Made by a program: the position numbers and the translations under genes. Positions 35,849 through 36,800 of a stretch of DNA of 59,844 nucleotides are shown in pieces. The notes beneath the pieces were generated by a model. The model did not search any database, had not been told where the DNA came from, and was given only the letters and a program-made list of their open reading frames with translations. The first letter of the stretch is position 1. Each line of letters begins with the position of its first letter. The DNA comes from Fibrobacter sp. (GTDB taxonomy: Bacteria; Fibrobacterota; Fibrobacteria; Fibrobacterales; Fibrobacteraceae), in assembly GCA_017503015.1 (NCBI GenBank), contig JAFVTX010000028.1:1-59844 (forward strand), read 5' to 3'.

Positions 35849-35921
35849 GCGGGAATAGCTCAGTTGGTAGAGCACGACCTTGCCAAGGTCGGGGTCGAGG
35901 GTCCGAGTCCCTTTTCCCGCT
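35849..35921 (+). tRNA. tRNA-Gly (anticodon GCC)
   Basis: The cloverleaf can be drawn by hand. The acceptor stem is GCGGGAA/TTCCCGC, the D arm GCTC...GAGC, the anticodon stem CGACC/GGTCG with loop TTGCCAA (GCC), and the T arm GAGGG/CCCTT with loop TCCGAGT. The discriminator base is T, as expected for glycine. CCA is not encoded. The minus strand carries a spurious frame with the RTLDPDLGKVVLYQLSY pattern often produced by antisense tRNA. Confidence 0.95.
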
Positions 35922-35922
35922 C

Positions 35923-36147
35923 GAAAAAAAGAAAAACCACCCTTTTTGGGGTGGTTTTCTTTTTTTATGCGTCGGGATAAAAAGGGACTCGGAGCCGAGA
36001 AGAGGGTGCGACTGAAATTTTTCATATGAGAACAAAGTGAACATAATTGAAAAATTTCAGCACTTGAGGCGCAAGCCTCAAGCCCGTAGGGCGAAGCATC
36101 GGCTCGCGCAGCGAGTGACCGATGCTGAGTATTCCCTTTTCCCGCTC
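35923..36147. ncRNA. Structured repeat unit 1 downstream of tRNA-Gly (candidate non-coding RNA or mobile unit)
   Basis: After the terminator come a near-copy of the reverse complement of the tRNA tail (AAAAAGGGACTCGGA at 35980-35994) and GAGGGTGCG (36002-36010). Stem A is CTGAAATTTTTCA/TGAAAAATTTCAG (36012-36060). Stem B is CTTGAGGC/GCCTCAAG (36063-36082), directly followed by CCCGTAGGG. Stem C is AGCATCGG/CCGATGCT (36095-36126). The unit ends in ATTCCCTTTTCCCGCTC, copying the tRNA 3' end. The 5' CGGGATAAAAAGGGA can pair with this tail. No ORF was recognised. Strand and expression are unknown. Confidence 0.55.
35933..35967. terminator. Terminator after tRNA-Gly; start of structured unit 1
   Basis: AAAACCACCC (35933-35942) pairs with GGGTGGTTTT (35949-35958), followed by a long T-run. 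It ends the tRNA transcript. The left flank is A-rich, so it could also work on the minus strand. Confidence 0.85.
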
Positions 36148-36190
36148 GAATACAAAAACGCCCAGCTTTTTGCTGGGCTTTTTTGTATTC
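36148..36190. terminator. Terminator at the start of structured unit 2
   Basis: GAATACAAAAA and GCCCAGC pair with GCTGGGC and TTTTTGTATTC around a five-base TTTTT loop. It directly follows the second copy of the tRNA tail. Its sequence differs from the terminators at 35933 and 36380, but position and form are the same. It is symmetric enough to work on both strands. Confidence 0.85.
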
Positions 36191-36379
36191 GGTTGAGAAG
36201 TTGGGTCGGACCCGAGACCCCTTGGGGGAGAGGGTGCGGCATAAAGCGACGTGCACGAAGTGCATACGATAGTCGCTTTATGAGCTTAATGTGAGTTCAC
36301 GAACATTAAGCCCGTAGGGTTAGACCGCAACCTTGCGCAAGCAAGGCGTTTTGTGGGCTAACATTCCCTTTTCCCGCTC
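36148..36379. ncRNA. Structured repeat unit 2
   Basis: Same order as unit 1 with different stem sequences. Terminator; GGGTCGGACCCGA; GAGGGTGCG (36230-36238). Stem A is ATAAAGCGAC/GTCGCTTTAT (36241-36281). Stem B is CTTAATGT/ACATTAAG (36285-36310), then CCCGTAGGG (36311-36319). Stem C is GTTAG/CTAAC (36319-36362) with inner CCTTGC/GCAAGG. It ends in ATTCCCTTTTCCCGCTC (36363-36379). Compensating changes in stems A-C between units argue that pairing is kept. Confidence 0.55.
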
Positions 36380-36420
36380 TAAACGAAAAAAGACACCTTT
36401 ATGGTGTCTTTTTTCGTTTA
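36380..36420. terminator. Terminator at the start of structured unit 3
   Basis: A perfect 18-bp stem: TAAACGAAAAAAGACACC (36380-36397) with GGTGTCTTTTTTCGTTTA (36403-36420). It sits immediately after the third tRNA tail and could act in both directions. Confidence 0.85.
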
Positions 36421-36659
36421 TCGCGGAAGGGCCCGGACCCTCGAAGAGGGTGCGGCAGTAGCGCCCGAGGCGAGCGCATAAAAACAGAATGTTTTTATGC
36501 CGAGCCGACCAAGCGGACGTCGAAGACGTCAAAAACCACCGTGCGCGTAGCGCATGAAATAGGTGGTTTTTGAGCTTGACGCGAACGTGAGTGAGTGTCG
36601 AGCCCGAAGGGTTGCTGAGCAGCCGCGTCAGCGGAGACTGCGAAGCAACATACCCTTTT

Positions 36660-36739
36660 GACGCCTTCGGCGTCAGCGGCGTCACTCGGTCATAGAGAAA
36701 AAGTGAACTTTTTCTATGACACTCGCTTAGCACGCTTTT
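36660..36739. repeat. 80-bp hairpin-rich insertion inside the last tRNA-tail copy
   Basis: CTTTT occurs at 36655-36659 and again at 36735-36739, and the tRNA-tail-like sequence resumes with CCCGTC at 36740. The inserted segment holds TGACGCC/GGCGTCA around TTC and GTCATAG/CTATGAC (36689-36720). The 5-bp direct repeat looks like a target duplication. Confidence 0.4.
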
Positions 36740-36800
36740 CCCGTCAAAACATTAAAATTTATTTCACTAAATTTTAAGAAATAATACTAGTTTTTGCCAA

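Follow-up and report, generated by a model that had tools for sequence, protein, structure and literature searches.

The window, that is, the whole 59,844-nucleotide stretch of Fibrobacter sp. DNA analyzed here, carries a tRNA-Gly(GCC) gene followed by three ORF-less units in tandem (35849-36743, tRNA gene included). We read this array, with moderate confidence, as a chain of tRNA-end repeats resembling the RtT repeats of Escherichia coli, composed of DNA modules that are turned over by recombination at the tRNA tails. It fits best among the repeats of the RtT/tyrT kind, as a diverged and modular Fibrobacter form that occurs at multiple tRNAs.

Architecture of the array

The following features were distinguished, all on the + strand.

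35849-35922: tRNA-Gly(GCC) (ARAGORN and Rfam)
35908-35922: the tail, i.e. the last 15 nt of tRNA-Gly(GCC) and the repeated piece (ARAGORN and Rfam)
35923-35966: unit 1, intrinsic terminator immediately 3' of the tRNA end (from the sequence)
35973-35992: unit 1, inverted copy of the tRNA acceptor-3'/T-stem, CGGGATAAAAAGGGACTCGG
36002-36011: unit 1, GAGGGTGCGA, which repeats the 5' strand of the tRNA T-stem and half of the T-loop in direct orientation
36012-36060: unit 1, hairpin A
36063-36082: unit 1, hairpin B
36083-36091: unit 1, CCCGTAGGG mini-hairpin with a C-GTA-G triloop, common to E. coli RtT
36095-36126: unit 1, hairpin C with a GCA triloop
36133-36147: unit 1, tRNA tail, direct copy
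36148-36190: unit 2, its own terminator, unlike that of unit 1 in sequence (from the sequence)
36205-36239: unit 2, inverted piece of the T-arm, and T-arm copy GAGGGTGCGG
36240-36364: unit 2, hairpins and mini-hairpin (A 36240-36282, B 36285-36310, CCCGTAGGG 36311-36319, C 36320-36362)
36365-36379: unit 2, tRNA tail, direct copy
36380-36420: unit 3, its own terminator (from the sequence)
36422-36455: unit 3, inverted tRNA 3' end (CGCGGAAGGGCCCGGACCCTCGA) and GAGGGTGCGG T-arm copy
36456-36652: unit 3, body with an extra hairpin module followed by A, B, CCCGAAGGG and C
36653-36743: unit 3, tail into which a 75-bp dispersed palindrome (36660-36734) is inserted, flanked by CTTTT at 36655-36659 and 36735-36739

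The tail, TCCCTTTTCCCGCTC, was found at 35908, 36133 and 36365 and at no other site in the 2.96-Mb genome, while the reversed control pattern gave 0 matches. The initial annotation had described exactly these three copies, each followed by a terminator of a different sequence, and stems A, B and C that differ between units yet remain paired; all of this was borne out, and units 1 and 2 folded far better than their shuffled versions (z about -6.5 to -7.3). It had also listed two degenerate tails, at 36652 and 36740. These sites are real, but they represent a single tail interrupted by the 75-bp palindrome with duplication of CTTTT. Copies related to this palindrome (GACGCCTTCGGCGTC..GGCGTCACTCGGTCATAG..CTATGACACTCG) are present elsewhere in many Fibrobacter genomes. 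Directly 3' of the array lie genes for an HTH (HipB-like) protein and HipA (window 36881-38593); several relatives carry other sequence at this point, which suggests that the end of the array is variable.

Each unit, about 110-390 bp long in Fibrobacter, has the same order of elements: a terminator of its own and the inverted tRNA 3' end come first, then hairpins A and B, the CCCGNAGGG mini-hairpin and hairpin C, and the tail comes last. The element GAGGGTGCG, at first taken for an independent motif, matches the T-stem 5' strand and half of the T-loop, which read GAGGGTCCGA in tRNA-Gly(GCC) itself. It copies the tRNA T-arm, and the T-loop of this second tRNA 3' end is therefore where the hairpins sit. 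The same layout was seen at tRNA-Pro(TGG), where the body lies between GTCAGTTCGA and ATCTGGC, and a T-arm copy likewise encloses the body at tRNA-Pro(CGG), tRNA-Ser(CGA) and tRNA-Arg(TCT). An inverted copy of the end of the unit's own tRNA (score of at least 10) was present in 77% of 81 units, compared to 9% when other tRNAs were used. The 5' end of unit 1 can thus pair with the unit's own tail, as was first noted, and GAGGGTGCGA (36002-36011) can additionally do so; this property is, however, not peculiar to unit 1, as most units carry a pairing inverted tRNA end. The tails of different tRNAs have no common core sequence, and CCA is not encoded in the tails of the Fibrobacter units. CCA is encoded in the listed tRNA genes of a same-class outgroup (G043, loci L166-L201), and mostly not in those of Fibrobacter or of a same-order outgroup.

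Distribution among tRNA genes and genomes

All 41 distinct tRNAs of the genome were scanned, in orientation, for copies of their own tail matching at least 13 of 15 positions. Five of them, Gly(GCC), Gly(CCC), Arg(ACG), Pro(CGG) and Arg(TCT), had such a copy within 1 kb, while the others reached at most 11/15, which represents the background. Relatives added Pro(TGG) and Ser(CGA), and thus at least seven Fibrobacter tRNAs are followed by units, each with its own tail; the homologues anticipated downstream of tRNAs in related genomes do exist. Among distinct Fibrobacter loci, units were present at Pro(TGG) in 21 of 28, at Gly(GCC) in 20 of 35 and at Arg(ACG) in 14 of 29, as well as at Pro(CGG) (5/5), Arg(TCT) (2/4) and Gly(CCC) (1/3). 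The Ser(CGA) units score below the strict tail threshold and are therefore outside these counts. The remaining isoacceptors at the Fibrobacter loci examined had no units, tRNA-Tyr loci included in the own-tail search. The one apparent exception, a tRNA-Glu(TTC) "copy" in genome G005, was rejected as a unit, because the entire tRNA gene is duplicated there. In some other genomes (L020, L026, L027, L033) the whole tRNA-Gly gene, its upstream region and a unit are duplicated in tandem. At the 13/15 threshold, none of the 30 tRNAs of a same-order genome and none of the 46 of a same-class genome were positive; as far as tested by the own-tail scan with these two outgroup genomes, the tail-bearing unit array is restricted to the genus Fibrobacter.

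Relationship to the E. coli tyrT repeats

The initial annotation knew of no named family of this kind; models run in both directions relate the units to RtT (RF00391), the tyrT repeats of E. coli. To our knowledge, RtT is known from enterobacteria only. The Rfam RtT model, built on enterobacterial tyrT repeats, was run over 41 whole Fibrobacter genomes irrespective of tRNAs. It gave 16 full-length, sub-threshold matches (22-37.6 bits, E 1.6e-5 to 0.09), the best of them below the gathering score of 45 bits. All 16 lie behind tRNA-Ser(CGA) or tRNA-Pro(CGG), either 31-44 nt away or as a second unit there. E. coli was the sole match among 14 control genomes. The units of the window were not reported by RF00391, and over threshold Rfam detected only tRNAs in the window and at the other tRNA loci.

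In the opposite direction, a model (R1) was built from 14 Fibrobacter Ser/Pro units, with no E. coli sequence. It recovered the E. coli RtT repeats, 4/4 in K-12 and 5/5 in strain 2022N21-074-17 (E 3e-10 to 1.6e-6), and also matched unit 1 (2e-6) and unit 2 (0.0016) of the window, with no match in 37 outgroup tRNA loci (79 kb). When read directly, the E. coli tyrT repeat matches the Fibrobacter layout element by element: GGGGAAGGAT is the inverted tail, GAGAAGCTTCGACCAAGGTTCGA comprises the inverted T-arm and then the T-arm copy, and hairpin A, GTTGCCGCAGGCAAC, ACCCGAAGGGC, GCGCGCAGCGC and GAGTAATCCTTCCCCCACCACCA follow. The Fibrobacter units thus fall below the RF00391 cut-off, but share its architecture and reciprocal similarity.

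In both groups, tandem units follow a tRNA, each closes with the exact tRNA 3' end, and the unit count varies among strains. Both contain the inverted tail, a GAGAA(C) inverted T-arm, a T-arm copy with TTCGA at its end, GNA-looped hairpins, the CCCGAAGGG mini-hairpin and the tail. RtT-like DNA is present in 4,680 of 5,426 E. coli genomes, at 1-9 places each, and in the E. coli strains that were read the second tRNA-Tyr is followed by 1-5 units. A fourth K-12 copy lies in the tyrT-tyrV spacer (L405 2164-2295) and is missing from some other strains. The E. coli repeats differ in being confined to a single tRNA (Tyr), in their near-identical 178-bp units, in a tail that includes CCA, and in having no terminator hairpin directly after the tRNA in the sequence read. 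The Fibrobacter units are found at Gly, Pro, Arg and Ser tRNAs rather than at tRNA-Tyr (tyrT); they occupy at least seven tRNAs, have differing built-in terminators and highly diverged, shuffled bodies, and do not encode CCA.

The bodies behind Ser and Pro tRNAs in Fibrobacter and behind tRNA-Tyr in E. coli are alike. Part of this likeness stems from the similar T-arms of the host tRNAs, and the likeness could also reflect convergence under one mechanism. However, neither the mini-hairpin nor the GNA loops are derived from the tRNA, and the same applies to GAGAA(C), which stands where an exact inverse would read TCGAAC; these shared features make common descent of RtT and the Fibrobacter units likely. 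No mention of the Fibrobacter units was found in the literature covered on RtT, Fibrobacter repeats and tRNA repeats, which includes few of the classic tyrT papers.

Gain, loss and shuffling of units

Comparison of closely related loci showed that whole units are gained or lost between tails. Loci L034 and L035 have a single difference, the presence of unit 2 (232 bp, tail to tail); over unit 1 and both flanks they are 98% alike. Behind tRNA-Arg(ACG), what distinguishes locus L236 from L237 is one 198-bp unit, located between the tRNA and the resident terminator; the tail copy at this tRNA is exact over 28 nt and occurs 0, 1 or 2 times per genome. Such exact, unit-wise presence and absence between strains fits the early suggestion of tiny units that insert at a tRNA end and restore it.

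Parts of units are also combined differently. A body nearly identical to that of unit 3 of the window was found after other terminators (L014 compared to L017 and L039). The Arg-type hairpin module sits within hairpin B of the Gly(CCC) unit of this genome, is absent from the corresponding unit of G033, and occurs near other genes as well. This two-hairpin module (GTGAGC..TATTAA..GCGAGAG..CGGTC) was recorded at L064 1711-1830 and at L060, L080 and L038; the GA..GA flanks of its stem resemble a kink-turn. An identical unit at two different tRNAs of one genome was not seen.

Stem substitutions and loop sequences

The stems of the aligned units covary strongly (helices 1-4 in one of the alignments). 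In the stems of a functional RNA, G-U pairs should exceed A-C mispairs. The mismatches of the units were therefore compared with a shuffle and with two RNA controls, terminators and tRNAs. Counted over 158 strong helices from 52 non-redundant units, G-T and A-C were nearly equal (20 and 18, i.e. 38 informative mismatches; p=0.87). The ratio was 69 to 13 in 174 non-redundant terminators located behind the tRNAs of the same genomes (Fisher test against the units, p=6e-4) and 40 to 4 in tRNA acceptor stems (p=1e-4 against the units). The difference persisted in the eight pairs nearest the loop, clear of the T-run of the terminators (units 15:15, terminators 36:5). When weak helices were included, the units showed 91 G-T against 66 A-C, an excess that was gone with strong helices only. 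In hairpins A-C of the 14 aligned Ser/Pro units, 86 double Watson-Crick changes and 3 G-T were counted. The initial annotation was thus right about strong covariation, but its reading of this covariation as the mark of a conserved RNA did not hold: such an RNA combines covariation with tolerance of G-U, and the units, unlike terminators and tRNAs, have no G-U excess.

The loops have a strand preference. Of 47 triloops, 35 are GNA and none is the complementary TNC, and C-GNA-G loops close 26 of 77 unit hairpins compared to 1 of 141 terminator hairpins. GNA triloops give exceptionally stable DNA mini-hairpins (PMC4686876), and template switching by polymerases renders imperfect palindromes perfect (PMC7202029; PMC6649704). 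Taken together, the absence of a G-U excess and the GNA triloops of the sense strand lead us to infer, from a modest number of mismatches, that the units are not a conserved RNA but palindromes at the level of DNA, on the sense strand; this is the reading we favor. The shared motifs (GAGAAC, and GA..GA beside the loops) could be protein-binding RNA motifs.

A model of unit turnover and its alternatives

According to the proposed model, a unit would join a terminator to a palindromic domain in one DNA module. The domain consists of the inverted tRNA 3' end, the hairpins and the direct tRNA 3' end, and its closing arms are copies of the T-arm and acceptor 3' strand of the host tRNA. Recombination of tail with tail would add or remove exactly one unit; as a unit opens with a terminator and closes with a tail, the tRNA gene would stay complete and would still have a terminator behind it. 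The palindromes would be held near-perfect at the DNA level, and the hairpins would form on the single-stranded sense strand. Template switching, hairpin-directed recombination or conversion with the tRNA may rewrite the arms to the local tRNA, so that related bodies come to bear Ser, Pro or Tyr arms. Lying behind a terminator, the Fibrobacter units are probably little transcribed. Slippage could also remove a unit, with no mobility involved. Neither a dedicated enzyme nor a recombinase acting on the units was found, and there was no sign of a donor circle or of an insertion event; only Xer-like recombinases look universal.

The units could instead specify a functional structured RNA, reached by read-through from the tRNA promoter, with a tail processed like a tRNA 3' end (as a mimic of T-arm and acceptor), and acting as an sRNA or as a decoy for a tRNA-processing enzyme, as in the case of E. 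coli RtT. In its annotation, the latter is an sRNA that arises by processing of the tyrT transcript, and the stable folds, the strong covariation and a tail/anti-tail helix that resembles the 12-bp acceptor/T-stem minihelix would suit such a role. However, we consider it unlikely, given stems without the G-U excess present in terminators and tRNAs, compensatory changes nearly devoid of one-sided G-U steps (86:3), the terminator that stands between tRNA and unit in Fibrobacter, and the strains that lack whole units. It is also rather improbable that the units are non-autonomous site-specific cassettes, inserted as circles at the tail by an integron-like recombinase acting on folded single strands or by a tRNA-targeting tyrosine recombinase. 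Exact presence or absence from tail to tail, the exact 28-bp repeats at tRNA-Arg, the shuffled combinations of terminator and body, and the order of terminator and then folded site, like that of a cassette and its attC, are all in keeping with cassettes. Against them, no recombinase family beyond the Xer-like enzymes is present in all genomes, Y1 transposases occur in only 13 of 41, the tails of different tRNAs lack a common core, and no identical unit serves two different tRNAs of one genome. Of the enzymes considered as candidates, the integrase encoded at L094 has close homologues in one other genome only, with its wider family in fewer than half, and Y1/RAYT transposases were rejected because any Y1 match is missing from most genomes. 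The five tyrosine recombinases of this genome could not be tied to the units. As tRNA 3' ends are common integration sites, the units might also be decayed remnants of attachment sites, left by unrelated prophages or islands, but this is very improbable: one anatomy is common to at least seven tRNAs and two phyla, and viral contigs have no matching att site bearing a unit. A search for phage att sites in viral contigs returned 53 exact 15-mers, which were read as chance or as phage tRNA genes and none of which was accompanied by a unit; the Arg tail had no match there.

Several known systems resemble the units in part. As in integron cassettes with attC, a folded, sequence-variable site closes the unit and exchange is head-to-tail at a fixed entry point; the units differ in having no ORF and in an entry point that is a tRNA tail varying by locus, and no integron integrase was identified, nor were attC R/L boxes seen by eye. 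REP/BIME and the palindromic repeats moved by Y1 (RAYT) transposases likewise have strand-specific hairpins and no ORF, but the Fibrobacter units are tRNA-bound, have arms copied from the tRNA, and occur mostly in genomes missing Y1 transposases. Integrative elements that target tRNAs by means of a tyrosine recombinase also duplicate and restore the tRNA 3' end; the Fibrobacter units, in contrast, are about 110-390 bp in size, lack an integrase, and have inverted arms as well.

Another structured repeat, GCGTTAGG.. ATCGAAGCCCGNAGGGC.. GGGAACGCC, was encountered in clusters after successive same-strand genes 1-3 kb apart (L399, L400, L401, L402, L403 and L404; in this genome at positions 7505 and 14090 of L398, G000:C26). 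The genes between these repeats include those for GNAT acetyltransferases, SocA/Panacea antitoxins, RhuM and the YhcG nuclease. The clusters resemble a gene-cassette array, but their ends, GTT..AAC, are the reverse of attC, and no integrase was seen nearby.

Beyond the present array, RtT-like units may, as a tentative generalization, constitute a cross-phylum class of ORF-less DNA elements that dock at tRNA 3' ends, carry their own terminator, fold as single strands and rewrite their arms to the host tRNA. The same anatomy occurs in another phylum, at no fewer than seven tRNAs and in diverged and shuffled form, which would make the tyrT repeat one frozen example of a wider class. The Fibrobacter units supply the natural variation needed for separating the RNA from the DNA-element reading. 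Comparison of wobble pairs with those of neighboring terminators is a simple test of the notion that covariation means RNA, and may suit other families of structured repeats in bacteria.
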